Source: Streptomyces sp. V3I8 (lineage in GTDB: Bacteria; Actinomycetota; Actinomycetes; Streptomycetales; Streptomycetaceae). Taken from it: DNA of 64,000 nt. Below the pieces are notes generated by a model. It was not told where the DNA came from and did no database searches. It worked only from the letters and a program-made list of their open reading frames with translations. This document shows positions 4,351 to 63,740 of this stretch, one piece after another. Position 1 is the stretch's first letter; each line of letters starts with the position of its first letter. The stretch is taken from positions 1,240,001-1,304,000 of the forward strand of contig NZ_JAUSZL010000002.1 of assembly GCF_030817535.1 (NCBI RefSeq), given 5' to 3'. The position numbers were made by a program, and so were the translations under genes.

Positions 4351-5154
4351 GTGAGCACACCACATGGCACGGCCCTGGTGACAGGAGCCTCCTCCGGCAT
4401 CGGCGCGGCCTACGCCGGACGGCTGGCCTCCCAGGGCTGGGACACCGTCCTCGTGGCCAGGAGGGCGGAGCGGCTCGACGACCTCGCGCAACGGCTGCGC
4501 GAGGGGACGGGCACCACGGTGGAGACCCTCGTGGCCGACCTGTCCGATCCCGGCGACCTGGCACGGGTGGCGCGGCGCGCGGCGGGCGACGACGTCGGAT
4601 TCCTCCTCAACAACGCGGGGATCAACGGCTACGGCCCGTTCGCCGCACTCGAACCGGAACTCATGACGAAGGTCCTCGCCGTCAATGTCGTCGCCGTCAC
4701 CGCGCTCACCCGCGCCGCGGTCCCGGCCATGCTGCAGCGCGGCCGCGGCACCGTGGTCAACGTGGCCTCGCAGCTGGCCTTCGCGGGCGCGCTGCCACCG
4801 CATCCGCTGCCCGAACGCGCTGTGTACGGCGGCACCAAGGGCTACGTGGTCACCTTCACCCGCACACTCGCCGCCGAACTGGCCAGCACACCGCTGCGGA
4901 TCCAGGTGTTGTGCCCTGGACTGACCGCCACCGAGTTCCACCGGTCACGCGGCGACGAGCCCGTCGCGGGACGGGACCAGTCCGTGCACGAGGACGGCGG
5001 CATGCCGGCGGGCGAGGTCGTCAACGCGTCGCTGGCCGCGCTGGACACCGGCGAGGTGGTGTGCGTACCCGGGCTCAAGGACCTAACCCTGACCGACGGC
5101 CTGGCGGAGGCCGAGTTGGCGATCCGCACGGCGGCCCGCCGGGACGGTGACTGA
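4351..5154 (+). CDS. Short-chain dehydrogenase/reductase (SDR), classical type
   Basis: A 267-residue cytosolic NAD(P)-dependent oxidoreductase. The cofactor motif TGASSGIG is at residues 11-18, followed by LLNNAGINGYGPF, the catalytic serine in VVNVASQLAF and the YxxxK pair in AVYGGTKGYV. The late block ALCPGL-like VLCPGLTATEF is also typical. GTG 4351 is preferred because GAAAGG lies 10 nt upstream; an in-frame GTG 18 nt earlier is possible. The gene stands alone between long gaps and converges on the permease gene, so substrate and pathway are unknown. Confidence 0.85.
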   Translation: MSTPHGTALVTGASSGIGAAYAGRLASQGWDTVLVARRAERLDDLAQRLREGTGTTVETLVADLSDPGDLARVARRAAGDDVGFLLNNAGINGYGPFAALEPELMTKVLAVNVVAVTALTRAAVPAMLQRGRGTVVNVASQLAFAGALPPHPLPERAVYGGTKGYVVTFTRTLAAELASTPLRIQVLCPGLTATEFHRSRGDEPVAGRDQSVHEDGGMPAGEVVNASLAALDTGEVVCVPGLKDLTLTDGLAEAELAIRTAARRDGD

Positions 5155-5230
5155 CCCGGTCCGTCGTCCCGCCCGTTCCGGTCCGGACGTCCGTGCACCC
5201 CATCAGTAGCGGCGGTCACGGTGTCGGGCC

Positions 5231-5480
5231 GGTGTGGGTGCATCCGGAGTCCGACGCCGAGCGGCACCTGACGCACCCGCCGGAGCCGGACGACGTACGG
5301 CGGGCACTGCGGGCCCGTCCCGACGCGAAGGGGATGCTGCTGATCACGCCGACGGGCTGGGGCTCCTGCGCGGACGTCCGCGGTGTCGCGAAGGTCTGTG
5401 CTGCCCGTACGCGTCCTCGGCGAGCAGGCCGGGGCGCTCACACCGAGGACGCTCCCGGCTGCCGACCGCGGCCGGGAGCG
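5231..5480 (+). pseudogene. Remnant of an Orn/Lys/Arg decarboxylase family gene
   Basis: Frame 5231-5398 reads VWVHPESDAERHLTHPPEPD, then an ARPDAKGMLLITPTGWGSC block and ADVRGVAKVC. This matches the fold-type I Orn/Lys/Arg decarboxylase region where a conserved SPTYYG-CAD...EVC block precedes the PLP lysine. After about 5398 the similarity continues in another frame as LPVRVLGEQAGALTPRTLPA, resembling the family VDEAWGAH...LP block. The PLP-lysine region and the rest of the roughly 480-residue enzyme are absent. A frameshifted fragment of this size cannot be functional. It lies just past the 3' end of the permease gene. Confidence 0.6.
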
Positions 5481-5491
5481 CCGGGCGTGGT

Positions 5492-6877
5492 TCACGCTGT
5501 CGGGAGGAGGGGGCCGGGGGCCTCCGGCTCCGTGGAGCCGGCTTCGCCGTCCGACTCGATCCGCATCTCGGGGGCGGGGCGGCGGAAGCCCTTGGTGATC
5601 ACCGCGAGCCAGACGATGCCGATGACCAGCCAGCCGAGGCCGAGCCCGACGGCGGTGCCACCCAGCTGGGTGATCAGGTAGACGTCGACCGCGGCGCCGA
5701 CGGCCGGCAGGAGAACGTACCGCACCGGGGAGTGGCGGGTCCCGGAGCGCCACTGCCGCACGGCGTAGGCGATCACGCAGACGTTGACGAGGGTGAAGCC
5801 GAGGAACGCGCCGAAGTTGATGAAGGAGGTGGCGTCGGCGAGGGAGAGGTTCATGGCCAGCAGGCCGACGGCGCCGACGACCAGCACGTTGGTGACCGGG
5901 GTGAGCAGCTTGCGGTGCAGGCGTCCGAAGATCCGGCGCGGCAGGGCACCGTCGCGGCCCATGACGAACATCAGGCGGCTGGTACTGGCCTGGATGGCGA
6001 CGCAGGAGGCGAAGCCGCCGAGCATGCCGACGATGTTGGCGACGTCCGCGAATGTCCCTCCGCCGACGGTGGTGGACACCAGGTATCCCGCGGAGTCCTC
6101 GTCGGGGAAGGAACCGCCCGGGTGGGCCCACTGCATCAGGAAGGAGATCACGATGAAGACGGTGCCGCCGGTCAGCACGGTCAGCACGATGCTGCGCGGG
6201 ATGGTGCGCCGCGGATCGCGCACCTCTTCGCTGAGCGTGCTCACCGCGTCGAAGCCGAGGAAGGCGTAGGCGGCGACGGCCGCGGCGGCGGTGACGGCGG
6301 ACAGGCTGGTGGCGCTGTTCCAGAAGGCGTGGCCGGCCGCGGGGGCGCCGCCGTGGCCGAGGCCGTAGTGGAGGCAGAGCACCGCGAGCACCACGAGGAC
6401 GGCGATGACGCCGAGCAGGAGCACCCGGTTGATCCGGTCGGCGACCTTGAGGCCGACGACGTTGATGGCGGTGGCGAGGACCACGTTGATGACCAGCCAG
6501 GCCCACATCGGGACGGCCGGGAACTGGGCGTGGAGGTAGATGGCCTGGAGCAGCCAGGCGACCATCGGCAGGAAGAGGTAGTCGAGCAGCATCGCCCATC
6601 CGGCCAGGAAGCCGATGCGGGAGTCGAGCTCCTTGCGGGCGTAGGTGTACACGGAGCCGGAGCTGGGGTGGACCCTGGCCATCTTGGCGTAGCTGAGGCC
6701 CGTCAGCAGCATGGCGCCGGTGGCGATCACGTAGGCGGTGGCCGCGGCGCCATGACTGGCGGCGGCGATGACGCCGAAGATCGAGGTGACGACGGCGGGG
6801 GCCATGTAGGCGACACCGAAGGCGACCACGGACACGAGTCCGAGGTCTCCGCGCATGCGGGTGGGCTGATCCGTCAT
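5492..6877 (-). CDS. APC superfamily amino acid/polyamine permease
   Basis: A 461-residue inner-membrane transporter with about 12 hydrophobic segments. The family start motif lies in segments 1-2 (VAYMAPAVVTSIFGVIA and LLTGLSYAKMARVHPSSGSV), and the loop motif SEEVRDPRRTIPRS follows the fifth segment. The overall layout resembles putrescine or amino-acid importers (PuuP/YjeH-like). It overlaps the upstream nitrilase-family gene by 4 bp (ATGA), so uptake and hydrolysis of an amide or amine compound are probably coupled. The decarboxylase remnant beyond its 3' end hints at polyamine or amino-acid metabolism. The substrate is inferred only. Confidence 0.88.
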   Translation of the reverse strand: MTDQPTRMRGDLGLVSVVAFGVAYMAPAVVTSIFGVIAAASHGAAATAYVIATGAMLLTGLSYAKMARVHPSSGSVYTYARKELDSRIGFLAGWAMLLDYLFLPMVAWLLQAIYLHAQFPAVPMWAWLVINVVLATAINVVGLKVADRINRVLLLGVIAVLVVLAVLCLHYGLGHGGAPAAGHAFWNSATSLSAVTAAAAVAAYAFLGFDAVSTLSEEVRDPRRTIPRSIVLTVLTGGTVFIVISFLMQWAHPGGSFPDEDSAGYLVSTTVGGGTFADVANIVGMLGGFASCVAIQASTSRLMFVMGRDGALPRRIFGRLHRKLLTPVTNVLVVGAVGLLAMNLSLADATSFINFGAFLGFTLVNVCVIAYAVRQWRSGTRHSPVRYVLLPAVGAAVDVYLITQLGGTAVGLGLGWLVIGIVWLAVITKGFRRPAPEMRIESDGEAGSTEPEAPGPLLPTA

Positions 6878-7872
6878 GGTGTTCCCTCTTCCGCGAGTGT
6901 ACGGCGGGTCTCGGTGAGGCCGCTGGAGCCACCGGAGCCGCTTGGGTCAGTGGGACCACTGGGGTCATCGGGGTCAGTGGGAGCGCCGGGGAAGAGTGCT
7001 GGTCCGGTGGCGCCGGCCCAGGTGGCGGGGTCGATACGGCCCTGGTAGAGCGGCAGGGCGAGGGGCTGGTCGTCGGGGCGGAACTGCTGCCACGGCCGGT
7101 TGAGCGCGGCGGTGCCGAGACGGCGGACGTTGGCGACCTCGTCCAGGTCGATCACATCGGTGAGGGTGGTGTCGCTGTCGGCCGCGGCCTCGGACCGTAC
7201 GGTGCCCTGCGGGTCCACGAGCAGGCTGCGGCCGGTGCCGACGGGCGCGGCGCAGTTGACGCTGGCGACGAACACCTGGTTGACGATGGCGTTGGCGCGG
7301 GCCAGCACGGTTTCCTGGGCGCGGTCGCTGCCGGAGGTCAGCACGAAGTTCAGTACCAGCTCGGCACCCATCCAGGCCAGGTGGCGGGTGGTCTCCGGGA
7401 ACCACGCGTCGTAGCAGATCGACAGTCCCACGCGGCCGACGCCGTCGAGGTCGAAGACGGTGAACCCGGCGCCGGGGGTGACGGTCTCGTAGGGCCGCCA
7501 CGGGAAGATCTTCCGGTAGGTCGCGACCCGTTCGCCGCGCGGGGAGTAGACGGGGGCGGTGTTGTACACGCGTCCGTCGGCTCCGCGTTCGTGGACGCTG
7601 CCCGGGGCGAGCCAGACACCGAGGTCGCCGGCGAGTTCGGCGAGGGCCCGGTCGCGCGGGCCGTCCAGGGGCTCGGCGAGGGCCTCGGCCTGCTCGGCCG
7701 GTGCGAGCACGGCGCCGCCGACCGGGCCGCCCAGATGCAGCTCGGGATATACGACCAGCGGTGCGGCGGGGAGCCCCGCCGTGCGCCTGCGCACGTCGGC
7801 GGCCAGGCCGTCCAGGTCATCGGCGGCGCGTTGGGCCGCCTGGGCCAGTACGAGGGGAAGAGGGCGGGACAT
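6874..7872 (-). CDS. Carbon-nitrogen hydrolase (nitrilase superfamily)
   Basis: A 332-residue soluble amidohydrolase. The catalytic triad is visible: Glu44 in VYPELHLGG, Lys in TYRKIFPWRPYE and Cys in VGLSICYDAWFPE. The C-terminal tail is repetitive (Asp/Pro/Ser/Gly-rich, PTDPDDPSGPTDPSGSGG) and probably disordered. It is the first gene of a two-gene operon with the permease and faces a TetR regulator across a 121-bp AT-rich gap containing a dyad. Nitrilase-superfamily enzymes of this kind cleave amides or N-carbamoyl compounds; the substrate is unknown. Confidence 0.88.
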   Translation of the reverse strand: MSRPLPLVLAQAAQRAADDLDGLAADVRRRTAGLPAAPLVVYPELHLGGPVGGAVLAPAEQAEALAEPLDGPRDRALAELAGDLGVWLAPGSVHERGADGRVYNTAPVYSPRGERVATYRKIFPWRPYETVTPGAGFTVFDLDGVGRVGLSICYDAWFPETTRHLAWMGAELVLNFVLTSGSDRAQETVLARANAIVNQVFVASVNCAAPVGTGRSLLVDPQGTVRSEAAADSDTTLTDVIDLDEVANVRRLGTAALNRPWQQFRPDDQPLALPLYQGRIDPATWAGATGPALFPGAPTDPDDPSGPTDPSGSGGSSGLTETRRTLAEEGTP

Positions 7873-7895
7873 GGGCCACCAGGTCTGACTCGAGA

Positions 7896-7920
7896 ATTAG
7901 TTAAACGAAATTTAGTTAAT
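7896..7920. promoter_or_regulatory. Imperfect dyad / direct repeat, probable TetR operator
   Basis: TTAGTTAA occurs at 7897-7904 and again at 7912-7919, a 15-bp direct repeat. The same 25 bp also read as an imperfect dyad, ATTAnnTAAA ... TTTAnnTAAT. It is the only AT-rich block in the divergent gap between the nitrilase and TetR genes, where a TetR operator overlapping both promoters would be expected. Confidence 0.55.
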
Positions 7921-7993
7921 GAATAGGGGTGAGTCAATGGAATGCCACAGCTGAGATACGGGCGCCGTACGGCCGTGTGCGAGCATGACGTTC

Positions 7994-8605
7994 ATGGCCC
8001 GACCCAGAAACCAGGCGGAACGCCGCGCCCAGCTGATCGACGCGACCGCCCGGACCGTGGTGGACCTCGGGGCCACGGCCACCAAGCTGCGGGACGTCGC
8101 GAAGGCCGCCGGCGTCACCCCCGCCTCGGTGCTCTACTACTACGCCGACATCCAGGAACTGTTCGCCGCGGTGTTCGAGCGCAGCGCGGCGACGTACTTC
8201 GTCAGCCGCGAGGAGGCCATCGCAGCGGTGGAGGGTCCGGTGGCGCGGCTGCGCGCCTGCGTCCGCAGCGGTGTGCCCTGGCCCGGGGAGGGCGAGGAGA
8301 GCACCCGGCTGCTCTTCGAACTGTTCCCGGTGGCCCTGCGCAACGAGGTCGCCGCCGACCGGCAGCGCACCTTCGCGCACCAGCAGGCCGAGCTCTACCG
8401 CCAGGTGCTCGAACTCGGCGAGGAAAGCGGCGAGTTCACCCTGACCGGCGACGCCCGGTCCCTGGGCCGCTCCTTCGTGGCACTGGAGGACGGCTACGCG
8501 ATGGACCTGCTGGTCGGCGACGCGACCGCCCAGGACATCGAGAACCGCCTGCTCGACCACGCGCACGTCGTGACGGGCAACCCGGCCTTCGACAGGCGCG
8601 GTTGA
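7994..8605 (+). CDS. TetR/AcrR family transcriptional regulator
   Basis: A 203-residue regulator. The N-terminal helix-turn-helix (about residues 8-55) reads RRAQLIDATARTVVDLG, TATKLRDVAKAAGVTPASVLYYYADIQELF, a clear TetR signature. The C-terminal ligand domain, with GEGEESTRLLFELFPVALRN and YRQVLELGEESGEFTLTGDA, resembles the BetI-like TetR_C group. ATG 7994 is preferred over the ATG 9 nt upstream because it gives the usual MARPRNQAERR start. It diverges from the nitrilase-permease operon and very likely controls it. Confidence 0.9.
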   Translation: MARPRNQAERRAQLIDATARTVVDLGATATKLRDVAKAAGVTPASVLYYYADIQELFAAVFERSAATYFVSREEAIAAVEGPVARLRACVRSGVPWPGEGEESTRLLFELFPVALRNEVAADRQRTFAHQQAELYRQVLELGEESGEFTLTGDARSLGRSFVALEDGYAMDLLVGDATAQDIENRLLDHAHVVTGNPAFDRRG

Positions 8606-10519: not shown

Positions 10520-10606
10520 CGGAGAGGGCAGGATTCGAACCTGCGCGCGCCCGGACCCGAACCGGTTTGCCCCTGTGCCCCGTTGGGCCACTTCGGGTAC
10601 CTCTCC
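10520..10606 (-). tRNA. tRNA-like gene with non-canonical D/anticodon region
   Basis: Read on the minus strand, GGAGAGG at the 5' end pairs perfectly with CCTCTCC at the 3' end. This is followed by one discriminator G and preceded by a perfect 5-bp T arm, GCAGG-TTCGAAT-CCTGC. Positions 8-9 are TA and a D-like arm CCCG...CGGG encloses the usual GG. The only good anticodon-type stem is CCGG-TTCGGGT-CCGG, giving anticodon CGG (Pro), but about 12 nt more than normal lie between the D arm and this stem. No CCA is encoded. A degenerate tRNA, an unusual tRNA structure or a tRNA-derived fragment are all possible. Confidence 0.55.
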
Positions 10607-10792
10607 TTGTTCCGGTCCGCGGGGCGTCGCCGCGTTCCCGGTGCGTTGCCGAGACTGCCGTGTCCGTCCCGTCCTGCATCCGGCTGGGAGCGGTGTCTCA
10701 GGGGCTCTCGGGACGCCCGGAGGAGCCTGCCCGCGGAGGGGCGTGGGCTCCTCGTAGCCGATCAGGTCGTCGGGCATCGCCCGGGAGGACCC

Positions 10793-10978
10793 TCAGCCCT
10801 CCGCCGCGAATGCCACGAACCGCGTCCATCCTTCGCGCCCCACCGCGAGGGGAGGCCGCGTCGCGTCCTTGGAGTCCCGTACGTGGATGGCTTGTTCGGT
10901 GAGGGCGACTTCAACGCAGCTGTCGCCCTGGCTGCCGCTGTGGCTGGACTTGAACCAGGCGAGTTCCGTCGTACTCAT
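10793..10978 (-). CDS. DUF397 domain protein
   Basis: A 61-residue soluble protein consisting of one DUF397 domain: the opening WFKSSHSGSQGDSCVEVAL and the later IHVRDSKD and TRFVAFAAEG blocks are diagnostic. In Streptomyces these small proteins accompany XRE regulators of the WhiJ/AbaA-associated type and probably act as their toxin-like or modulating partners. It overlaps the XRE gene by 4 bp (ATGA) and is translationally coupled to it. Confidence 0.9.
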   Translation of the reverse strand: MSTTELAWFKSSHSGSQGDSCVEVALTEQAIHVRDSKDATRPPLAVGREGWTRFVAFAAEG

Positions 10979-11826
10979 AGCTCTCCTCGCAGTCGCTCCA
11001 GCAGACCCCTCGAGTCTTTGGGGGTCAGGGCCTGCGAGCGCAGTGTGTCATAGCGCTGCTGGAGCAGACTCACCTCTTTCACGTCGGCGATCAGCCGACC
11101 GTTCTGCTGGCCTTCGGAGTACGCGAGACGCCGCCCCTCCGGTGTCTCGAGCAACTGCACCGGGCCGTCCAGGCATGCGTGCAACTCGCTGTCCAGCGGC
11201 ACGACCTGCAGCCGCACGTTGCGCAGCCGACTGCGCTCCAGCACTTGATCGAGCATGTCCCGCATCTGTTCGGCGTCGCCGAACCGGCGACGGAACACAT
11301 GCTCCTCCACGATGAAGCTGAACGGCACAGTCGGCCGCTCGTACAGCATCCGCCGCCTCTCCATGCGGACAGCAAGCAGAGTCTCCAGGCCCTCGTCCGT
11401 GACCACGGGAATCGTGCCCTCGAACACCGCCCGCGCATATCCCTCCGACTGCAACAGTCCCGGCACCAACCGGCACTCGTACGTGCACAGGCTCACCGCC
11501 ACCTTTTCCAGCCGGGCCCACCGCCGGAACCACGCCGCCAGTCCCGCCTCGCCCCGCGTCAGGTGCCGGGCCGCCTTGCGCAACGCGCCCGTGTCGCCCA
11601 GTGCCTCCTCCGCCCGCTCCACGAACGATTCGTCCGGCATCCGTCTGCCCAACTCCACGGACTCCACGGTGTGCTTGGAGAACCGCACCCGCGCCCCGAA
11701 CTCCGCCCGGCTGAGCCCGGCGTGTTCGCGCAGGGCCTGGACGACCGCCCCGAAGGTCCGCAGACTGTCGGAGGGATCCGGCTCGCGCTCTCCGTCGCAA
11801 GCCGTCACGTCACTGCTGTCCGGCAT
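10975..11826 (-). CDS. XRE family helix-turn-helix regulator with DUF5753 domain (WhiJ-like)
   Basis: A 283-residue regulator. An HTH_3/XRE domain (about residues 22-80) reads FGAVVQALREHAGLSRAEFG, VRFSKHTVESVELGRRMP. The C-terminal DUF5753 ligand-like domain (about 90-275) contains AWFRRWARLEKVA, YECRLVPGLLQSEGYARAV and the tail VSLLQQRYDTLRSQALTP. These proteins pair with DUF397 partners and influence development or antibiotic production in Streptomyces. The neighbouring divergent SpoIIAB-like ATPase completes the usual three-gene module. The target genes cannot be inferred. Confidence 0.9.
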   Translation of the reverse strand: MPDSSDVTACDGEREPDPSDSLRTFGAVVQALREHAGLSRAEFGARVRFSKHTVESVELGRRMPDESFVERAEEALGDTGALRKAARHLTRGEAGLAAWFRRWARLEKVAVSLCTYECRLVPGLLQSEGYARAVFEGTIPVVTDEGLETLLAVRMERRRMLYERPTVPFSFIVEEHVFRRRFGDAEQMRDMLDQVLERSRLRNVRLQVVPLDSELHACLDGPVQLLETPEGRRLAYSEGQQNGRLIADVKEVSLLQQRYDTLRSQALTPKDSRGLLERLRGEL

Positions 11827-11992
11827 ACGCGGCCACCTCCAGATGCGTACGTACGGTGCGGCGTCACCGCGATCAACTCACCCACAGTGACGGCACCCTC
11901 GACGTACTGTCCACCCAAAGTGTCCGTACGCTGACGCAGCGTACGGAGCCCACCCCTGGAACCCGCCCCCGCACGCCCGCCACAGTGACCCC

Positions 11993-12469
11993 ATGAACGC
12001 CACCACCCCCCGCCTCGCCAGCGCCGCTGTGCACACGTTCACGCAGCGGCTCTCCTCCACCCGACGCGGCGCCCGCCTCGCCCGGCTCCTCGCCGTCGAA
12101 CAGCTCCGCGCCTGGCCGGTGTCACCCGGCGTGGCCGACCGCGCGGAACAGATCACCGCCGAGCTGGCCGCCAACGCGGCCCTCCACGGCTGCGTGCAGG
12201 GCCGCGACTTCCGGCTCCGCCTCACCGTCGACACCACCACCGACACGGTGCGTATCGCGGTCACCGACGCACGCGGTGAGCAACTGCCCGCTCTGTCCGT
12301 GGACTTCGAGACACCGCCCGACAGCGAATCGGGACGCGGCCTCATCCTCGTCACCGCCCTCGCCGACCGCTGGGGCACGGAATCGCATCCGCCCGGCGGC
12401 AAGACCGTATGGGCCGAGGTCTCCCCCGCTTCGGGGCAGGCAGGGCGGGTCGACCACCAGCCCGGGTAG
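11993..12469 (+). CDS. SpoIIAB/RsbW-like ATP-binding protein
   Basis: A 158-residue protein with one GHKL ATPase fold. The N box ITAELAANAALHG carries the Mg-binding asparagine, and the G1/G2 boxes are in VRIAVTDARGEQLP and SESGRGLILVTALADRWG. No kinase dimerisation domain is present, as in anti-sigma factors. It is divergent from the XRE-DUF5753/DUF397 pair with a 166-bp gap. Such orphan ATPases belong to the same developmental regulatory modules; whether it phosphorylates an anti-sigma antagonist is unknown. Confidence 0.85.
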   Translation: MNATTPRLASAAVHTFTQRLSSTRRGARLARLLAVEQLRAWPVSPGVADRAEQITAELAANAALHGCVQGRDFRLRLTVDTTTDTVRIAVTDARGEQLPALSVDFETPPDSESGRGLILVTALADRWGTESHPPGGKTVWAEVSPASGQAGRVDHQPG

Positions 12470-12670
12470 CGGGTCAACCGGTGCGGGTCCCAGCAGCGTC
12501 CCGGTGACGCACGGGACCGAGTCGCCGTCCCGTGCGTCACGACGGCCTACCGGAATCTCGGATCGAACAGCCGCGGCGCCGAAGTCCGTGCCTGAACGTG
12601 GCAGCAGCCCGACCCTCGCCGGCACCCGACGGCCGTTCACCGCGGTCGATCGTTGGCTAGGGTGGCGAAG

Positions 12671-55594: not shown

Positions 55595-55745
55595 GGACGG
55601 CAACTCCTCGATCGGGTCCTGGGACTCCGAGCCTGCCTCGTCAACCCTGTCGTTTTCCTGTCGATGAACTTTCAAGTGATTATCGATCCGGACTCGACGG
55701 ACCCTTTGCCATGGCGCTGATCGCCGGGTGAAGCACTATGGGCAC

Positions 55746-56456
55746 GTGGAAAAAGTACGACTTCTCGTCGTGGACGACGATCCGCCCATCGCCGACCTGG
55801 TCGCGACGGTCGCCCGCTACGAGGGCTGGGAGGCGGTCACCGCGAACAGCGGTGAGGAGGCGCTGCGCCGCGCCGCCGCGTTCCGTCCGGACATCGTGGT
55901 GCTCGACCTGATGCTGCCGGGACTCGACGGCTTCGCCGTTCTCGACCGCCTGCGCCTGTCCGGGACGATGGTTCCGGTGGTGTTCCTCACCGCCCGCGAC
56001 GGAGTGGCGGACCGGGTCGCGGGCCTCACCAGGGGCGGCGACGACTACCTCGTCAAACCGTTCGCGGTGGAGGAGCTGATGGCCCGGCTGCGGACCGTGC
56101 TGCGCCGCAGCGTGGGACCCGGCTTCCAGCGGTCCGTGCTCACGGTCGCGGACCTGACCATGGACGAGGACACCCGCGAGGTGCGCCGCGGCGAGCGCCT
56201 GCTGACGCTCACCCCCACCGAGTACGAGGTGCTGCGCTACCTGATGCGCAAGTCGCCGACCGTGCTGACCAAGGCGCAGATCCTCGACCACGTCTGGGAG
56301 TACGGCTTCGGCGGCCGCTCGAACGTGGTGGAACTGGTCGTCAGCCGCCTGCGCCGCAAACTCGACGGCGACACCGACGGCGACGGCACCGACGGGCCGC
56401 AGCTCATCCACACCGTGCGGGGCGTCGGGTACGTGGTCCGGCAGGCCGGCGCGTGA
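55746..56456 (+). CDS. OmpR/PhoB family response regulator (orphaned)
   Basis: A 236-residue regulator if started at GTG 55746; GTG 55728 is the alternative. The receiver has the acidic pocket VVDDD at the start, phospho-acceptor Asp54 in IVVLDLMLPG and the switch lysine in DDYLVKPF. The C-terminal winged helix has LTPTEYEVLRYLMRKSPTVLTKAQILDHVWEYGF and VVELVVSRLRRKLD. It diverges from the flavin electron-transfer operon and may activate it. Its sensor kinase should follow directly, but only nine codons of a coupled frame remain, so it probably lacks a dedicated kinase. Confidence 0.9.
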   Translation: MEKVRLLVVDDDPPIADLVATVARYEGWEAVTANSGEEALRRAAAFRPDIVVLDLMLPGLDGFAVLDRLRLSGTMVPVVFLTARDGVADRVAGLTRGGDDYLVKPFAVEELMARLRTVLRRSVGPGFQRSVLTVADLTMDEDTREVRRGERLLTLTPTEYEVLRYLMRKSPTVLTKAQILDHVWEYGFGGRSNVVELVVSRLRRKLDGDTDGDGTDGPQLIHTVRGVGYVVRQAGA

Positions 56457-56482
56457 CCGGCGACAGCCCACTCATCAGGTGA
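56453..56482 (+). pseudogene. Truncated start of a sensor kinase gene
   Basis: GTG at 56453 overlaps the response-regulator stop (GTGA), the usual junction with a histidine kinase gene. It reads MTGDSPLIR and stops after nine codons. No kinase sequence follows; the minus-strand membrane-protein gene begins its 3' end 31 bp later. Identity as a kinase start is inferred from position only. Confidence 0.45.
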
Positions 56483-56513: not shown

Positions 56514-57110
56514 TCAAGGTCGGCTGCAACTTTTCACGGGCTCGATGGAGACGATTCGGCTGATCGGCGTCTCCTTCAAGCTCTCCCCCTTGACGACCAC
56601 GTTGCCGTCGGCGGTTCCTACGAGTTCACCGCACATGCTGTCACCTCTGGTGACCACCCGGACCGTCGGTTTTTCAGGGTGTGAGACCGGACCGAACCAG
56701 GTGAAGCCGAGGGCGGCCACAAGAAGCGAAAGCGCCACAAAGGTCAGTAGAGCGGCGCACCAGATCCGTCGGGCGACAATTTTGACCTCGTGCCTGGTCC
56801 ATTCTCGAAGCCCTTCGCCGGTCAGGAGTATTTCCGCGCCGGGTGTCCCGGCGGCCGCCCGGACGGCGAGGACCGTCGCCGTGAGGAGACCTCCGAACGT
56901 CATGACGAGCAACACAGCGACAGTCACCCTCGTCCAGGACGCGAGATCACCTATGGTCTCATGTCCCTTCACCACCAGTACGATGCCCAGCAGCGTGGTC
57001 ATACCGGTCAGCCCGGTCCGCCAGACTTCCGCCTGCTTGCGCGCGGTCGGCAACTGCTCGAGCCGTAACTTCTGGGCGTACTGGGCCCACCGCTTGTGTT
57101 CGATACTCAT
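56514..57110 (-). CDS. Membrane protein, third gene of the caspase/Hsp90 operon
   Basis: A 198-residue protein of no recognised family. A basic, helical N-terminus (MSIEHKRWAQYAQKLRLEQL) precedes three hydrophobic segments: TGMTTLLGIVLVVKG, VTVAVLLVMTFGGLLTATVLAV and CAALLTFVALSLLVAALGFTWF. The last 50 residues are polar, with TVRVVTRGDSMCGELVGTADGNVVVKG, likely beta-rich. ATG 57110 overlapped the stop of the small zinc-ribbon gene (TGATG) before the IS5 insertion, so the two were translationally coupled. A membrane effector released or activated by the caspase is possible, but not shown. Confidence 0.7.
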   Translation of the reverse strand: MSIEHKRWAQYAQKLRLEQLPTARKQAEVWRTGLTGMTTLLGIVLVVKGHETIGDLASWTRVTVAVLLVMTFGGLLTATVLAVRAAAGTPGAEILLTGEGLREWTRHEVKIVARRIWCAALLTFVALSLLVAALGFTWFGPVSHPEKPTVRVVTRGDSMCGELVGTADGNVVVKGESLKETPISRIVSIEPVKSCSRP

Positions 57111-57124
57111 CAGATGCCGACAGA

Positions 57125-57132
57125 CCAGTAAG
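57125..57132. repeat. Left target-site repeat of the IS5-family element
   Basis: CCAGTAAG occurs at 57125-57132 and again at 58013-58020, on both sides of the element. Two or three bases around the left junction do not match the right one, so the true duplication may be AGTAAG plus one base. Joining the flanks at this repeat restores one reading frame and a TGATG overlap. Confidence 0.65.
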
Positions 57133-57137
57133 AGGTC

Positions 57138-57955
57138 CTAACAAAGGCGTCGGACGTGGCGGTAGGTGATCAGGCAGGTGGCGAGGCCGAGGAATGCTTC
57201 GTGGATGTCGTCGCGTCGTTCCCAGCGGATGCGTAGGCGGCGGAAGCCGTGAAGCCAGGCGATCGTGCGTTCGACGACGTAGCGGAAGACGCCCAGGCCG
57301 GTGCCGTGAGACTCGCCCCGCTTCGCGATCACGGGACGGATCCCGCGCCGCCACAGCAAGCGCCGGTACTTGTCGTGGTCGTAACCACGGTCGGCGAGCA
57401 GTGCGTCGGGCCGGTGGCGGGGCCGGCCGACAACCCCGGCGACGGCGGGGATCTTGTCGAGCAGGGGCAGGAGTTGGGTGACGTCGTTGCGGTTGCCGCC
57501 GGTCAGCGACACCGCGAGCGGGATGCCCTGCCCGTCGACGATGAGGTGGTGCTTGCTGCCCGGACGTGCGCGGTCGACCGGGCTGGGACCGCTTTTGGGC
57601 CCCGTCGGGCCGCGCGGACATGCGAGGAGTCGATCACCGCCCGGCCCCAGTCCAGATGGTTCTTCGACCGCAGCTCGTTCAGCAGCAGATGGTGGAGCTG
57701 GTCCCAGACGCCGGCCTTGTTCCAAGCCGCCAGGCGCCGCCAGCAGGTCATCCCCGAGCCGAAGCCGAGCTCCTGGGGCAGGTACTCCCACTGGATGCCG
57801 GTGTGCAGGACGAACAGGATCCCGGACAGGGCCTGCCGGTCCGGCACCCGCGGTCTGCCCTCAGCCTTCTTCGGGCCCGGGTTCGGTAGCAACGGCTCGA
57901 TCAACGACCACAGTTCGTCCGACACGATCCACGGCCGCGACTGACGGTTTCCCAT
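57138..57955 (-). CDS. IS5-family transposase, made by programmed -1 frameshift
   Basis: Frame A (57955 down to about 57597) begins MGNRQSRPWIVSDELWSLIE and contains FVLHTGIQWEYLPQELGFGSGMTCWRRL and the first catalytic aspartate in AVIDSSHVRA. Frame B (from about 57600 down to 57138) continues with GPSPVDRARPGSKHHLIVDGQ, ALLADRGYDHD for the second aspartate, and the final YVVERTIAWLHGFRRLRIRWERR with the catalytic glutamate. The frames join by a -1 shift at the heptamer CCCAAAA (minus strand, 57599-57593). ATG 57991 could extend the N-terminus. The complete enzyme should be functional. Confidence 0.88.
57593..57599 (-). promoter_or_regulatory. Slippery heptamer for -1 ribosomal frameshift
   Basis: On the minus strand C CCA AAA in the zero frame becomes CCC AAA after slipping back one base, the classical X XXY YYZ pattern. 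It joins the two transposase frames at GPK, which is shared by both. Confidence 0.75.
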
Positions 57956-58006
57956 ACCCAGACATACGAGCAGAGAGACCGACAGTCTCATGATCAGCAG
58001 CTTTTG

Positions 58007-58297
58007 TTAGAGCCAGTAAGCGCCGCATCCCGTATCCGGCGACTCAGGCGGCCTGCCCTCGTGCCAGTAACCGCATTCGCAATACATCGTCACCTTCGTC
58101 GGCTGCGTCGGCCGAGCCCGCCGGAGAGGTCCTTTCGTGCCCTGAGGGCTGCCGTACACGAACGTCATCTCTGTACGGGTGGCGCATCGAGGGCACAGTC
58201 CCGCAACGGTAAGCCCTCCTTCATCCCGCAGCACCGCGAAGTCCGTTTGGTGAGCAACCTCTATTTCGGCGAAAGCGACACTGTCGTGGTCAGCCAT
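58007..58297 (-). CDS. Small zinc-ribbon-like protein, 3' end altered by IS insertion
   Basis: A 96-residue protein without a known family. LCPRCATRTEMTF and YCECGYWHE provide two CxxC/CxC-type pairs, so a zinc ribbon is likely. ATG 58297 overlaps the caspase gene stop by 8 bp, so the genes are coupled. The last codons (TGG CTC TAA) run into the IS5 end. Without the element the frame would continue TGG TCT GTC GGC ATC TGA, ending CGAYWSVGI and overlapping the next ATG. The loss of four native residues is minor and the protein may still work. Confidence 0.7.
   Translation of the reverse strand: MADHDSVAFAEIEVAHQTDFAVLRDEGGLTVAGLCPRCATRTEMTFVYGSPQGTKGPLRRARPTQPTKVTMYCECGYWHEGRPPESPDTGCGAYWL
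58013..58020. repeat. Right target-site repeat of the IS5-family element
   Basis: CCAGTAAG, the second copy of the left-flank sequence. It forms the codons for Ala-Tyr-Trp near the end of the small zinc-ribbon gene on the minus strand. Confidence 0.65.
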
Positions 58298-61200
58298 TTA
58301 GAGGCTCCTCCGGAAGACTCAAGGAGAACAGACGAGCGTAACTCCGCACCCGTTCCAGAATCTGTGAGGCTGGATTCCCCGTCGCTTCGGCCGCTCTAGC
58401 AAAGTGGTCCGGGTCCACCCGGCCGCCGATTTCCGGCCGTTGTCCGTCCAGATGGACAGTCAATGCCAGCAGGTCGCACCAGTGCACGATTCCCTCCGGG
58501 ACCGCGTCAGACGCGTAGGTGAGACGCAGACCGAGCAGTGCCATCCGGGTGAGCCGCTGATGGGCCTCCCGCAGGGACATGCCGAGCCGACCAGCGATTT
58601 GCACCAGTCTCAAGGCATCCACTTCCGTCAGGTAGACATCGTCCACGAGGGAAGCGGGTGTCTCACGGGGAATTACAAGCAACTCGTGATCATAAAGATC
58701 TGGGTGCCATGCACTCAGTTCCTCGACGTCTTCCTTAGAAAGATCTGGAAGAGGCGCACCCAGCTCTCGGTAGGGAACAACTTTCCAAAGGAACTCACTG
58801 ACGGTGCAACCGAAGTCGAGTGCACCGGCAACGATCTGCCCGACGCCGAGAGCCCATCCCACGGGCTCCACCGCCCAGTAGGGGGTGATCAGATAATCCT
58901 GAAGCAGCCACGGTTGGAGCTCCTCTGCGCTTTGGTCGATCTCGGGGAGCCGGACCTCGGGGTAGACCCTGGAGAAACACTTACGGGCTTCTCCGAGCGA
59001 TCCGATGATCATTGACGCGAGGTGAACCAGGTCCGGTCCGGTGATCTCCACATCCGGAATCGTGAAGGCAACCAGATCCTCCACTTGGTTCGTCACACCA
59101 CGCCGCATGTACCGCCCGGATAGTGCAGCCGCCACCGACAATGAAGCCGGGCGTCGCAGGAACCTCTGTCGACCTGTCCGAGGGTCCATTATCTGCAGCG
59201 CATAGCCGATGAATCCGACAGTTTCCGCGTCGGGACAGAAATCTTCCGCGGTCTCGGCCTCTGGCAACTCAAGAAGGCCACACCCCTCCAAATCTCCGAG
59301 TTCCGACCTGACTTCTTGATAACTGTTTCCGGTCAGCCCAGCGATATGAATCAGCTGAACGGGTGTCAGAATATCTCCGATCTCTTCCAGGTGTCGCAGC
59401 GCTTCCACCTGCACCTGACTGAATGACTCCGGATATCGTTCGCGTCCGGCCACGCTCACTCCCAGAGAGGCGAATCGCTCACACATTTCAAGAATCTGCG
59501 ATATTTCTCTACCGAGTTCGCCGGCTGCGTGGGCAATATGGGCGGGCTGCAGCGGTCCCGATATCCAGGGAGGAAGGGAGATGAGCCGAACGGACAGAAG
59601 CCTCGCCTCGGCCACCGTGCATATGCGGTCTCCAAGCTGGCCGAGTTCGGCACACGGCCCGACCCATCCGGGGGGCGCTATCGCGGCTGCTCTGCGCACG
59701 ACCTCACGCAGCGGCTGGTCGAGTTGCACAGACGCCTTAACCAAGCTCCCGGCGACAATGGCGGAACGCGCAAGACCAGGCGGAGACCAGGCGGCCAGTG
59801 CCCCGGCAAGCGCGGCGTCCTCCTTCTTGAATGTCAGGTCGACAGCAGGGCCACGATGGAGATTGCGTAGATCCAGACCAGTTATCGCAAATTTTCGCAG
59901 TCGATGGAGAAGCCTCGAAAGCTTCTGCTTCTCATGTGCGGTTGCTTCGAGGATCTCCTCGAGCAGAACGGGGCGGTCCTCACCATAGTGATGATTGAGC
60001 CGGGCTAAAAGAGCCCCGTCGACAGGGTCGGCCACAGGAAACCCTTCGACCGAGAGTGCCTGAGGTATACGACGCAGGTTCCACTGGGCGCTGGACCTTC
60101 CTTTCCACGCTCCGGACCGCCAGATCGTGAACCACCGAGAGTAAAGGTAGTAGCCTCTGCTCTTCGGGTCGAAAAGTTCCTTGTCCTGCGGAACACAGCC
60201 GGTCCCCGCAAGCGAAATGGTCGCACTTTGCCCCCAGCCACCACCGATCGGTATCTCTGCTTCGACTTCCACAAGATGCTTGAAGACACGTTCAGCCACC
60301 TCCGCCGATGAATTCGTGACTTCCCACAGCCAGGACAGTGTCAGCCCCGGCCAGTCATCCAAGGCGGGCAGAGATTCGTCGATTTTCCCGTAAACCCAGT
60401 CTTCGTGCCAGGTACGAATTTTCTTTCGGTCGACAGTGAACTGAGGGCGATGCTCGTCTCTCAGATTGACAATCAACCCGTAAATCTCTTCATTGGTACG
60501 TAAACCGTCTGCCGCCAGGCCACCTTCACCCGAAACCCACCAAAGGTCGCGATCGAACTCAAGCGATTCAGCCGAATCATCCTGATACCGAAGCTGCTGG
60601 GGTTGCCACTTCTCCGGTGCCGAGGCGTGTTCGGTCGCAATGACCCTGTACTCGGCGATCCACAACAGTCGGCGAAGGGTCTGCAGAACGGAGATCTTCT
60701 TGTCAGCCTCTTCTTCTCCAGTGAGGTAGAGCCTGATCCTGGTGCCGCCCTGCAGCATTTCTTCAGATGGAGTCACCTGCATCAGGCTGCCGCTGCTGGC
60801 GATCCGGACAGCGAATCCATCCGGTGAGGGGATGCCTTGCTGGTCCACAGGGCGCGTGTACAGAAGGACCTCATCCGCAATCATGAAGTAGCTGAAGACT
60901 CCAACGCCGAACTGGCTGTTGGAGACCATACGCAGCGGCGGGTCGAGCTCCTGCCAGACGGCGTGCTCGGCGCGGTAGTCCTGTGAGTAGACGAACCGCT
61001 CCCCGGCCTGCGAAAAAACATGCTCCAGCACGTCCCGGGTCATCCCGACGCCGTTGTCTTCGCATTCGATGTACTCTCGGTCGCCGTCCAGTCCTTGCCG
61101 GAAGATGATCTCTCCCGTCCACGGCGCGGGACGTCGGCCTTTCCTCCGTAGCCCTTCAAGACGAGTGTCCCGGTATCGGCAGGCGTCCAGGGAGTTCTGG

Positions 61201-63074
61201 TAGAGCTCACGGATCGCGAGTGCGGGGTCGTCGTAGAGCTGCCGACCCATCAGCAGTTCGCGGATCTTGTCCTCGGAGAGCCGGAACCGGGTCAAGGGCA
61301 CCTCGTACACGGCAGTGCCGTTCGGGCCCGGACGATCGGGCCGTACTCCGTCATGAGTGATCCGGAAGGGCAGGGTGTCGTCGACCGGGCCCAGGCGTCC
61401 GAGTCCTTGCAGACGACTCAGGACATGCTGTCCGGCGTCGGCCACGGCCTGAAAGGCATCCTGTTGCGCGGGATGTGTACAGATCAGCGCCAGATCGAGA
61501 TCCCCTTTGCGTCTCTTCGCACGCAGCAGGTCGGCGGCGTCCTTGACCGAGGCGAGGGACAGTTCGAGACCGGTGCCTATGTGATCGGCTATCACTGCAG
61601 GCAGACGGCGTGGGTCGGCCGCCAGGGTCCCTGCAAGCCATAGCGTTCCTGTTCTCCCCCGCCATTCGTCCGGCAGCGCGGCAAGCCTTTCCTCCAGTCG
61701 CACATCGACCGGTCCCGCGGCCACCGCGCGGATCAACGTCTCCATCAGGTGGCAGCACTCGCCCTGGCTCAGATCGGTCGCGGTCCTGCGGATCAGACTC
61801 GCCCCACGATCGGCACACACCTGTGATTGCCGGAGTTTCCACAAACCGGTGAAACCATCGAGCCAGCGATGGACCAGCCACATGACGAGGGTCTCGGCAG
61901 CTTCGGCCTCGCCTCGTCGGGTCAGTCCCTCGGCCCGACGGGTCACCTGGGGATACATCTCGTGGGTGAGCTCGAGGTCGGTTCGATGGCCCCGCTCGTA
62001 GCAACGCTTGAAGTCACCTGGCCTGATGACAGCAGCCTTTCGCACTCCTTCCGCGAGAACCGCCTCGCGCATGAAGGGAGCCGCGATCATCACTGCCGCC
62101 TCTTCGGCCGCGATCGGCGTGCCCTCGGTCAAGATCTCCGCAGTGAAGCCGATCGTTCTCGCCGGGTAGTTCGGGTCGAACCAGTGGTCAGTCATCCCCG
62201 TCCGCTCCCGGAGTTCGTTGGAGACCTCCAGATGAGTGCGCGCGCAGTCCTCCGCCACCCCCGTCACGTGGCCGCGTATCTCGTCCGTGACTCCGGAGGC
62301 GAGATCCCAGAGACGGTTGTCCGCCGCGACGCGGCGCCACGCGGAGACGAGTTCGTCACCCTCGCAGATCACCTGATCCGCAGCATCCCGGAACATCGTC
62401 ATCGGGTAGGCGTTCGGGATCTGGGAGCTGTTCTGCCCTCGCCCCGTGGTCCTACGCATCTCCTTGGTGACCTCGTTGAGTACCGCGGACAGCGTGCGGG
62501 CGGGGTGACGACGGTCGAGTACTCGGGCGAGTGTTCTCGTGAATACACTGCCGTCCTCACCGTAGTGACAGACCTGGCCGGGAGCACAGGCAGCCACCAT
62601 CACTTGCGAGCCCTCCGCCGGATAGTGCAGCACTCCTCCTCCACCTCCCTCCGTGGGAAGGCCGGCAGGAGAGTCCCGGCACGCATCGACGAAGAACACC
62701 ACGAGTCTCGCGCGACAGTTGCTCAAATCCGGAACCACAGGCACAAGACTGTCCAGGACGAGCTCCCCGCCCTCGCGGAAGGCGTCGCTGGGAACGAGGT
62801 AGTCGACACCGTCGGCGCTGACGCCGTGTCCGGAGAAATAGAGGAGCAGCACACTGCCCTCCGCGGCTTCCGCACAGGCCTTCCTGATCGCAGCCCGGAT
62901 TCGGCTCCCACTCGGATCCAACGTGTCCGCACCGATCGAATCAACCGAGTAGGAAGATGGTGTCAACGCCGACCGCATCTTCTCCAGATCGTTTCTCACC
63001 ACCTGTGCGATAGGGGAGAATGTCACGTCATCACATTGCGGTACACCGATGAGTAGCGCCTGACGTCGCGTCAC
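58290..63074 (-). CDS. Caspase / Hsp90-type ATPase / winged-helix-repeat conflict-system protein
   Basis: A protein of about 1594 residues if started at GTG 63074; ATG 63107 is also possible. Residues 1-230 form a caspase-like protease, with His83 in LLLYFSGHGVS and Cys132 in VVFFVDACRDS. A helical middle part follows. Residues about 600-800 form an Hsp90/GHKL ATPase with Asn627 in AIRELYQNSLDAC, DNGVGM at 673-678, SQFGVGVFSYF at about 720 and a later GGTRIRLYL. The last 500 residues contain at least five winged-helix-like repeats (for example LTPVQLIHIAGLTGNSYQEV and LTEVDALRLVQIAGRLGMSLREAH). This resembles predicted caspase-Hsp90 conflict systems: sensing or assembly by the repeats and ATPase, protease activation as output. 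Confidence 0.87.
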   Translation of the reverse strand: MTRRQALLIGVPQCDDVTFSPIAQVVRNDLEKMRSALTPSSYSVDSIGADTLDPSGSRIRAAIRKACAEAAEGSVLLLYFSGHGVSADGVDYLVPSDAFREGGELVLDSLVPVVPDLSNCRARLVVFFVDACRDSPAGLPTEGGGGGVLHYPAEGSQVMVAACAPGQVCHYGEDGSVFTRTLARVLDRRHPARTLSAVLNEVTKEMRRTTGRGQNSSQIPNAYPMTMFRDAADQVICEGDELVSAWRRVAADNRLWDLASGVTDEIRGHVTGVAEDCARTHLEVSNELRERTGMTDHWFDPNYPARTIGFTAEILTEGTPIAAEEAAVMIAAPFMREAVLAEGVRKAAVIRPGDFKRCYERGHRTDLELTHEMYPQVTRRAEGLTRRGEAEAAETLVMWLVHRWLDGFTGLWKLRQSQVCADRGASLIRRTATDLSQGECCHLMETLIRAVAAGPVDVRLEERLAALPDEWRGRTGTLWLAGTLAADPRRLPAVIADHIGTGLELSLASVKDAADLLRAKRRKGDLDLALICTHPAQQDAFQAVADAGQHVLSRLQGLGRLGPVDDTLPFRITHDGVRPDRPGPNGTAVYEVPLTRFRLSEDKIRELLMGRQLYDDPALAIRELYQNSLDACRYRDTRLEGLRRKGRRPAPWTGEIIFRQGLDGDREYIECEDNGVGMTRDVLEHVFSQAGERFVYSQDYRAEHAVWQELDPPLRMVSNSQFGVGVFSYFMIADEVLLYTRPVDQQGIPSPDGFAVRIASSGSLMQVTPSEEMLQGGTRIRLYLTGEEEADKKISVLQTLRRLLWIAEYRVIATEHASAPEKWQPQQLRYQDDSAESLEFDRDLWWVSGEGGLAADGLRTNEEIYGLIVNLRDEHRPQFTVDRKKIRTWHEDWVYGKIDESLPALDDWPGLTLSWLWEVTNSSAEVAERVFKHLVEVEAEIPIGGGWGQSATISLAGTGCVPQDKELFDPKSRGYYLYSRWFTIWRSGAWKGRSSAQWNLRRIPQALSVEGFPVADPVDGALLARLNHHYGEDRPVLLEEILEATAHEKQKLSRLLHRLRKFAITGLDLRNLHRGPAVDLTFKKEDAALAGALAAWSPPGLARSAIVAGSLVKASVQLDQPLREVVRRAAAIAPPGWVGPCAELGQLGDRICTVAEARLLSVRLISLPPWISGPLQPAHIAHAAGELGREISQILEMCERFASLGVSVAGRERYPESFSQVQVEALRHLEEIGDILTPVQLIHIAGLTGNSYQEVRSELGDLEGCGLLELPEAETAEDFCPDAETVGFIGYALQIMDPRTGRQRFLRRPASLSVAAALSGRYMRRGVTNQVEDLVAFTIPDVEITGPDLVHLASMIIGSLGEARKCFSRVYPEVRLPEIDQSAEELQPWLLQDYLITPYWAVEPVGWALGVGQIVAGALDFGCTVSEFLWKVVPYRELGAPLPDLSKEDVEELSAWHPDLYDHELLVIPRETPASLVDDVYLTEVDALRLVQIAGRLGMSLREAHQRLTRMALLGLRLTYASDAVPEGIVHWCDLLALTVHLDGQRPEIGGRVDPDHFARAAEATGNPASQILERVRSYARLFSLSLPEEPLNG

Positions 63075-63272
63075 CGACCCATGGTACGGAAACTGCCGCT
63101 CAGCCATCAGCCGATCGGCACAAGCCACTACCACTACCGCCGTCCATCAGGGTTCCGAGCCGTGATCCACCCTGATCTGCTCGGCTGCCCCGGCGCTGTT
63201 CCAGCCCACGACCGCTCTCGAGGACGGCGAGCCGCGCCCTCGTCCTTGCGTTCTGGTTGGATGCCGTCATGA

Positions 63273-63740
63273 GTGACGAAGAGCATCTGGAGCGATGCCG
63301 ACTTCGACTCGATGGGATGGCACGACGGAACCATCCACGGACTCTGCGTGCAGCCGGGAGCCTCCGAGAACTCGCTGCCCCGCCTGTTCCTGGACATCGA
63401 CTACATCGTCCGTTGGGTGCATCCGGTCGCACCTCAGACACACTTCAGCTTCTGGGCCGCGCCGTCCACTCTTGTGTTCGACGACGTTTGGGACATCGAG
63501 GGCAGCCTCGACTTCAAGGGAATGGCCTTGAGTCTCGACATCGACCATCTTCGACGCTCGCTCCCGCAGGACAGTCGTGGCGGCCCGCGCTGGCACGTCG
63601 AAGGCCACTCCTTCGACCTCACGTTCCGAGCCACAGGATTCCATCAGTACCTGCGGCGGGCTCCCCAGTACGCGCAGCGGCTTGCCCTCCCGCACAGCGA
63701 GCGCGGAGGGGTCTCGTTTACGGAGAGCGCCTTCACCTGA
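63273..63740 (+). CDS. Hypothetical protein
   Basis: A 155-residue soluble protein of no recognised family. It begins MTKSIWSDADFDSMGWHDGTIHGL, and LFLDIDYIVRWVHP and SFWAAPSTLVFDDVWDIEGSL give a regular beta-rich pattern with conserved Trp, Asp and His. The pattern resembles small immunity-type proteins, but that is not established. GTG 63273 is preferred; its ribosome site is weak. It diverges from the caspase gene by about 200 bp and has near-normal codon bias. It could be an unrelated flanking gene. Confidence 0.65.
   Translation: MTKSIWSDADFDSMGWHDGTIHGLCVQPGASENSLPRLFLDIDYIVRWVHPVAPQTHFSFWAAPSTLVFDDVWDIEGSLDFKGMALSLDIDHLRRSLPQDSRGGPRWHVEGHSFDLTFRATGFHQYLRRAPQYAQRLALPHSERGGVSFTESAFT

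Follow-up and report, generated by a model that had tools for sequence, protein, structure and literature searches.

A caspase–Hsp90-type ATPase protein of Streptomyces and its conserved zinc-ribbon and membrane-protein partners

We analysed a stretch of 64,000 nucleotides (hereafter the window) from the 9.3 Mb genome of Streptomyces sp. V3I8 (GCF_030817535.1, contig NZ_JAUSZL010000002.1, positions 1,240,001 to 1,304,000) and found on its minus strand an operon whose order is a large gene, a gene for a small zinc-ribbon protein (ZR), an IS5-family insertion sequence (IS) and a gene for a membrane protein (MP). The large gene encodes a single protein that joins an N-terminal caspase, a Hsp90-type ATPase and winged-helix-like repeats. 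Its coupling to ZR and MP is strongly conserved, and the same ZR-MP pair also occurs beside a second kind of caspase-clan protease, which carries a CHAT domain. The large protein belongs to an already known predicted kind, whereas the partner pair is what is new here.

Results

A scan of GTDB genomes yielded 49 loci of the large protein, which come from Actinomycetota, Cyanobacteria, Planctomycetota, other phyla and an archaeal metagenome-assembled genome. With tblastn and profiles, ZR and MP were found directly 3' of the large gene in 18 of them, all in Actinomycetota by their record titles, and likewise directly downstream in 17 of 40 Streptomyces regions that we fetched, starting from 64 matches to PF24401, a Pfam family of the large protein. 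In total, 36 loci, including the window, have ZR and MP beside the large gene, with six more found from the MP side. A preliminary description of this DNA, made from the sequence alone, had coupled the large gene to a zinc-ribbon protein and a three-segment membrane protein and had called for a neighbourhood survey of the three-gene set; as the survey shows, homologues do co-occur with both partners. The genes for ZR and MP overlap by 4 nucleotides in 17 of the 18 GTDB loci and in 16 of the 17 fetched Streptomyces loci, and by 1 nucleotide in the remaining one of each set (L033 and L082, respectively). In this class, conservation extends to the 3' partners and not to the neighbours 5' of the large gene.

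In the window, ZR is a protein of 96 residues (58007..58297, minus strand) whose gene overlaps the large gene by 8 nucleotides. Cys35, Cys38, Cys73, Cys75, His79 and Cys91 were invariant in 19 of 19 ZR sequences. MP is a protein of 198 residues (56514..57110, minus strand) with three predicted transmembrane (TM) segments and a C-terminal small beta barrel. Neither the window's ZR nor its MP matched a Pfam family.

We then compared the partners across 92 candidate genes in 89 loci, a count that includes one HtpG (L093) and a split gene counted twice (L063). A caspase together with ZR and MP was found in 37 genes, a caspase together with Pepco in 22, Pepco only in 1, a caspase alone in 10 and none of these in 22. 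Pepco (PF24393; three members scanned) is the identity of the small genes that cluster upstream in other loci of the large protein, and in that branch it lies as a rule directly upstream of the large gene. ZR or MP and Pepco were never found together within 1.5 kb (0 of 92), and no Pepco lay within 1.5 kb at the window or at any of the 37 ZR-MP-bearing genes. In a tree of the ATPase domains (a quick FastTree run with midpoint root, branch supports not shown) the ZR-MP-bearing genes formed one group and most of the caspase-less proteins another. In Streptomyces this caspase-less iHD-CE/Hsp90 group comprises L088, L089, L091, L092, L093 (second gene), L094, L095, L097, L099, L100, L102, L112 and L116; seven N-termini of such proteins were scanned and contained no Pfam effector domain. 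Neither the ZR-MP pairing, nor the exclusion of Pepco, nor the sharing of the pair with CHAT proteins was found in the open-access papers searched, subscription papers lying outside the scope.

Searching from the MP side, we detected it in 67 of 392 Streptomyces genomes (1e-8), in 15 of 394 from the same taxonomic class (E ≤ 1e-10) and in 6 of 396 from the same phylum (1e-8), the window's own genome being included in each count. We examined 53 MP loci, chosen mainly as those not already known in the large-protein class. Six proved to belong to that class, leaving 47 others; 48 of the 53 also carried ZR. In 33 of the 47, a CHAT domain (PF12770, caspase clan) was encoded within 4 kb of MP, and in one further locus (L166) at 7.1 kb. 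These domains were identified with an in-house profile, started from three domains that Pfam had confirmed and taken through two iterations. In the seven partner genes scanned, CHAT was also recognised by Pfam itself (1e-43 to 5e-27), and the presumed catalytic His and Cys were conserved in 34 of 34 aligned domains. By comparison, 131 CHAT matches in 61 Streptomyces genomes correspond to an expectation of about 0.24% within 4 kb of a random gene, and no CHAT was found in the six frames of 20 random 10-kb regions.

The position of the CHAT gene relative to ZR-MP varies, being upstream on the same strand (e.g. L170, L180), downstream (L141) or divergent (L160-L164, L177), and the association recurs across several arrangements and families. 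Since the pair is found beside CHAT proteins as well, it is apparently tied to caspase-clan proteases and not to the large protein alone, which suggests that it is a portable module of such proteases. Several of the examined MP loci have further contents. The ZR-MP-CHAT locus L141 encodes a TIR domain and a reverse transcriptase fused in one protein (10606-12624, minus strand), and in L138 ZR-MP is followed, beside the CHAT protein, by a TIR/AAA-NB-ARC-like protein (4960-6258, minus strand) and a protein rich in tetratricopeptide repeats (TPR). In the single case of L184 a subtilase gene (6379-8526, plus strand) lies near the pair, with no caspase or CHAT found. In L156 (2612-3763, plus strand) and L159 (2719-3873, plus strand) the pair adjoins a gene for a protein of 383-384 residues of no recognised family, with no protease found; this protein is possibly a further type of ZR-MP partner, and the MPs of L157 and L158 are closely similar to those of L156 and L159.

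A structural model of MP, built from 68 sequences (predicted local distance difference test score, pLDDT, 87.9; predicted template modelling score, pTM, 0.68), has helices at residues 3-53, 58-87 and 98-139 and five strands within residues 149-192. The hydropathy profile has four peaks, of which two overlap, and we interpret them as three TM segments. The N-terminus and the second loop carry positive charges, which weakly favours a cytoplasmic N-terminus with the barrel outside, a topology call that is weak because the tail is charged as well. Cys160 and Cys195 were invariant in the first 19 members, and the MPs of L118, L119 and L121 end before the barrel. The barrel is similar in shape to Hfq/Sm barrels (Hfq/SH3-like), though not significantly so. 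Of all MP stretches, R..A..WR.GL, which lies where the first TM segment begins, is the most conserved between the two protease classes. None of the 19 members matched a SLATT model at E ≤ 1 in profile comparison (folds not being compared), and no gasdermin was among the matches listed in the fold searches, which give a ranked list only.

The large gene (58290..63074, minus strand) encodes 1594 residues when read from the GTG at 63074, which is the length of the deposited protein P0002. Longer in-frame GTG starts lie at 63107 and 63134 (minus strand), and the longest open reading frame (ORF), 58290-63134 (minus strand), has 1614 codons from the first GTG; we favoured the GTG at 63074 because the relatives' consensus begins 'MT.R.ALLIGV'. 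The caspase domain (Peptidase_C14, 2.5e-20) occupies 62391..63005 on the minus strand, with the codons of His94 and Cys143 (P0001 numbering, as below) at about 62826-62828 and 62679-62681. It is followed on the same strand by an iHD-CE domain (PF24401, 61338..62339; 4.3e-41, 141.7 bits against a Pfam cut-off of 27), overlapped by HD-CE (9e-15), by the Hsp90/HtpG-type N-terminal ATPase domain (60705..61253), with its N-box, DNGVGM and GVGVFS motifs, and by the repeats (58293..59753, residues 1119-1605). HATPase_c scored 0.0098 and PRK14083 1.8e-11 (residues 619-801), each under the cut-off of its model. A profile of 49 sequences compared with those of the PDB matched HtpG at 7.5e-10, and thereby secured the Hsp90 assignment; its caspase part matched metacaspase-4 at 2.3e-6 and MALT1 at 2.7e-6.

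The alignment of 49 rows (the window's protein and 48 relatives, 37-85% identical to it) showed H94, C143, E634, N638, D641, D684, N685, G686, G688, M689, G734 and G736 to be invariant. H94, C143 and N638 are the residues that had been singled out beforehand as His83, Cys132 and Asn627, and the residues of the two glycine-containing ATPase motifs, named then as well, are conserved in the relatives. Profile alignment of a wider set found H94 and C143 kept in 69 of 69 caspase domains, including all 37 of the ZR-MP-bearing large proteins, and E634, N638, D641, D684 and the glycines kept in 91 of 91 ATPase domains, one of which is a plain HtpG (L093, first gene). Asn685 was replaced in 10 of the 91, four of these being in the ZR-MP class (L109, L118, L119, L121).

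The C-terminal part matched wHTH-HSP90_Na-assoc (PF24410) at 2e-17 (63.7 bits against a cut-off of 23) in three stretches. An AlphaFold2 model of the last 647 residues, built from 16 sequences, had a pLDDT of 85.5 and a pTM of 0.85; from this model and the sequence we delimited by eye seven units of 45-49 residues. Profile comparison of the units gave 96% for units 3 and 6, 91-94% for 2 and 6, 88-91% for 2 and 7, and 28-70%, depending on pair and direction, for 1-2, 1-6, 2-3, 2-5, 3-4 and 4-6, the remaining pairs falling below 20%; when the units were set against seven control pieces taken from other parts of the large protein, every one of the 49 comparisons gave 0%. Several winged-helix-like repeats are thus present, as had been described, the figure of seven being our own count and resting partly on the model. 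Foldseek with the whole repeat array returned nothing significant. The union of caspase, Hsp90-type ATPase and winged-helix-like repeats in one protein of about 1600 residues, as described beforehand, is confirmed.

The large protein had at least 118 whole-length relatives at E ≤ 1e-5, and its iHD-CE/ATPase part at least 650 at 1e-10, both counts being lower bounds since each search scored the 7992 best candidates. PF24401 was present in 45 of 295 Streptomyces genomes. The closest named relatives are from Streptomyces (85% and 82% identity), and that of S. physcomitrii is 84% identical. NCBI labels members 'caspase family protein', 'HD domain-containing protein' or 'wHTH domain-containing protein'. 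As its domains bear Pfam names, this kind of protein is known to curators. The preliminary description had presented the operon as a candidate new defence system; with hundreds of relatives, novelty is not supported for the large protein. The names iHD-CE and so forth presumably originate from the Aravind/Iyer group; 'iHD-CE' in this sense was absent from the open-access papers searched. Against PADLOC-DB 2.0.0 the large protein matched only the model 'caspase' (2.7e-10), and ZR and MP matched none at E ≤ 1.

The window's copy of the operon is interrupted. The IS5-family element (57133..58012, minus strand; DDE_Tnp_1, DUF4096), with transposase ORFs at 57138-57791 and 57503-57991, is bounded by an 8-nucleotide direct repeat, CCAGTAAG, at 57125-57132 and 58013-58020, part of which may belong to the ends of the element. 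Its insertion removed the overlap of ZR and MP along with the last few residues of ZR. ZR now stops one residue past the invariant Trp95; in the other named relatives it extends about 4-6 residues further and overlaps MP. The other 35 loci have nothing between ZR and MP.

The GC content is 0.58-0.65 from 58 kb to the end of the window, against about 0.72 before 55 kb. Low GC had been remarked on at about 59000-60700, correctly as to the composition; the stretch is longer than was then described. The operon lies between a response-regulator gene (55728-56456, plus strand) and its kinase gene. All 8 relatives examined (L217-L224) have these two genes side by side with nothing in between; here they are about 8.2 kb apart. 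A second copy of the regulator region, degenerate and internally deleted, lies at the far side (L081 9686-9939, about 64685-64938 in window numbering and thus beyond the window), matching the region of the first copy (55728-56461) over 167 nucleotides at 85% and 41 nucleotides at 98%. The lower GC and the splitting of a two-component operon together suggest that the island was acquired. One integration site shared by all loci was considered as an explanation of the neighbourhoods and rejected, as orthologues of the regulator, kinase and ferric reductase (≥50% identity) were not found in the other loci compared, except for regulator-family matches of 53-54% in L075, L087 and L146. The low-GC island also holds a divergent ORF of 155 residues (63273-63740, plus strand) 5' of the large gene; it matched no Pfam family, and none of the other loci compared has a counterpart that reaches 50% identity over 100 residues.

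Discussion

The analysis directly supports the domains of the large protein, its catalytic residues, the operon of overlapping genes and the occurrence of ZR-MP beside two families of caspase-clan proteases. As the pair recurs beside two caspase-clan architectures, its working partner is likely the protease itself, and not the Hsp90 domain or the repeats. On this basis we propose, tentatively and with somewhat less than even confidence, that the operon is a three-gene protease switch of actinomycetes built around a large protein that resembles nucleotide-binding leucine-rich repeat (NLR) proteins. In this proposal the winged-helix-like repeats would form the sensing arm, the Hsp90-type ATPase would be a dimerisation switch driven by ATP, and the effector would be the N-terminal caspase, activated when two copies are brought together. 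Once the sensor fires, presumably upon invasion, the caspase would cut or release the MP-ZR pair at the membrane, and the pair would then permeabilise the cell or stop its growth, a logic like that of gasdermins with a different membrane protein. ZR and MP may, more generally, be a portable membrane module serving caspase-clan proteases at large. The further step, that the pair is a portable protease-activated effector adopted separately by caspase-Hsp90 and TPR/CHAT proteins (perhaps also by a subtilase), and hence a second solution of the gasdermin type, is one that we regard as possible though doubtful.

Several observations weigh against this proposal. Profile and fold searches found no relative of known function for either MP or ZR. 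L104 sits inside the ZR-MP clade of the ATPase-domain tree and lacks the pair. No caspase or CHAT was found in 13 of the 47 other MP loci, one of which (L142) is at a contig end. Shared descent connects part of the CHAT-linked loci, which thus do not amount to 33 independent events, and because many are so related we give no probability for the association. A Lys in the ZR loop, invariant in the 19 ZRs of the large-protein class, is missing from the CHAT-linked ZRs; it was therefore rejected as the common cleavage site, and no shared site can be named. Finally, the neighbourhoods of ZR-MP operons were not enriched in PADLOC models, with 7 families among 145 neighbour genes against 41 among 134 random Streptomyces genes (E ≤ 1e-15; 20 random regions; genes from a simple ORF caller, some of them spurious), and the enrichment in defence islands that had been anticipated was thus not borne out. 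This test counts families rather than proteins and discriminates poorly: none of the 7 families was matched by more than two proteins, and among the 25 of the 41 random-gene families that were listed, many are PD-T4-6 models with one protein each. MP had no tblastn match in 72,556 plasmid records, where it alone was searched, and the large protein, the only one searched there, had none in 50,697 phage records. A role in conflict is suggested by the domain content and the patchy spread of the system.

The same facts can be read in other ways. ZR-MP could be a membrane-bound sensor or anchor that detects an envelope signal and recruits and activates the neighbouring caspase-clan protease, which would then cut other proteins. 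The barrel, if it does lie outside the membrane as the positive-inside rule weakly indicates, would be well placed for this, its conserved Cys pair could form a disulfide, and Kaur et al. (PMC7159879) proposed for EACC1 that a membrane partner activates a caspase as its sensor. Yet the barrel is absent from L118, L119 and L121, and hence not always required, and the MP fold searches identified no ligand-binding fold. We consider this reading rather unlikely. In weighing the two roles of MP, we place most weight on a target or effector, by analogy with gasdermins and with Craspase and Csx30 (PMC10028731), and less on a sensor or anchor, for which EACC1, in its proposed role, provides the analogy.

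A different possibility is that the system serves the life cycle of filamentous actinomycetes, in development or envelope stress, through programmed death or regulated proteolysis, with ZR-MP as a membrane scaffold and no part in defence. The restriction of ZR-MP to Actinomycetota (18 of 18 GTDB loci, out of 49 loci in several phyla) and the lack of a defence-island signal by PADLOC fit such a role, but such patchiness as PF24401 and MP show among Streptomyces genomes would be surprising in core developmental genes, and the low GC and the insertion into a two-component operon speak for acquisition; we deem this quite improbable. For this genome in particular, the operon may be a decaying passenger that no longer works, MP having been parted from ZR by an insertion that is seen nowhere else among the 36 loci and that cost the overlap and the end of ZR. 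Such decay, which can be combined with each of the other readings where the intact relatives are concerned, seems rather unlikely to us. Against it, the large ORF runs over 1594 codons without a stop or frameshift, MP is open and ZR retains its invariant residues up to Trp95.

Multicellular bacteria commonly encode caspase-clan proteases, but few of these have a known partner or output; a conserved small pair found beside two protease architectures points to a common output or controller. Should the protease-switch proposal be true, it would extend protease-gated membrane damage in bacteria to a membrane protein other than gasdermin.

Among known systems, the closest to the one described here are the Pfam iHD-CE, HD-CE and wHTH-HSP90_Na-assoc proteins (PF24401, PF24391, PF24410), including the Pepco branch (PF24393), which share the architecture of the large protein; that branch has Pepco upstream, whereas the window's has ZR and MP downstream and never Pepco. 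The two-gene caspase/EACC1 system of Kaur et al. 2020 (PMC7159879) likewise pairs a caspase with a membrane protein in conserved neighbouring genes. There the caspase gene is the 3' gene and EACC1 has a strongly conserved TM segment, whereas in the operon described here MP lies 3' of the caspase gene and after ZR, and its TM helices number three; moreover, the NCBIfam model caspase_w_EACC1 gave 57.1 bits on the large protein, under its cut-off of 140, so that this is not a caspase of the EACC1-associated type. In Craspase, the TPR-CHAT protein Csx29 acting with Csx30, a sensor-activated caspase-clan protease also acts on a protein of the same system, but its sensor is a CRISPR effector and its substrate controls a sigma factor, and the accessible part of that paper mentions no relative of ZR or MP (PMC10028731). 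The VMAP systems with trypsin and Trypco1/2 resemble ours in having small, mutually exclusive genes that track the type of protease, and differ in their MoxR-vWA NTPase, their protease and their small partners (PMC7159879). Bacterial gasdermin systems similarly place a protease beside a membrane-active partner, with cleavage proposed to be followed by membrane damage; MP, however, is predicted to consist of three long helices and an Hfq/SH3-like barrel, unlike the gasdermin fold.

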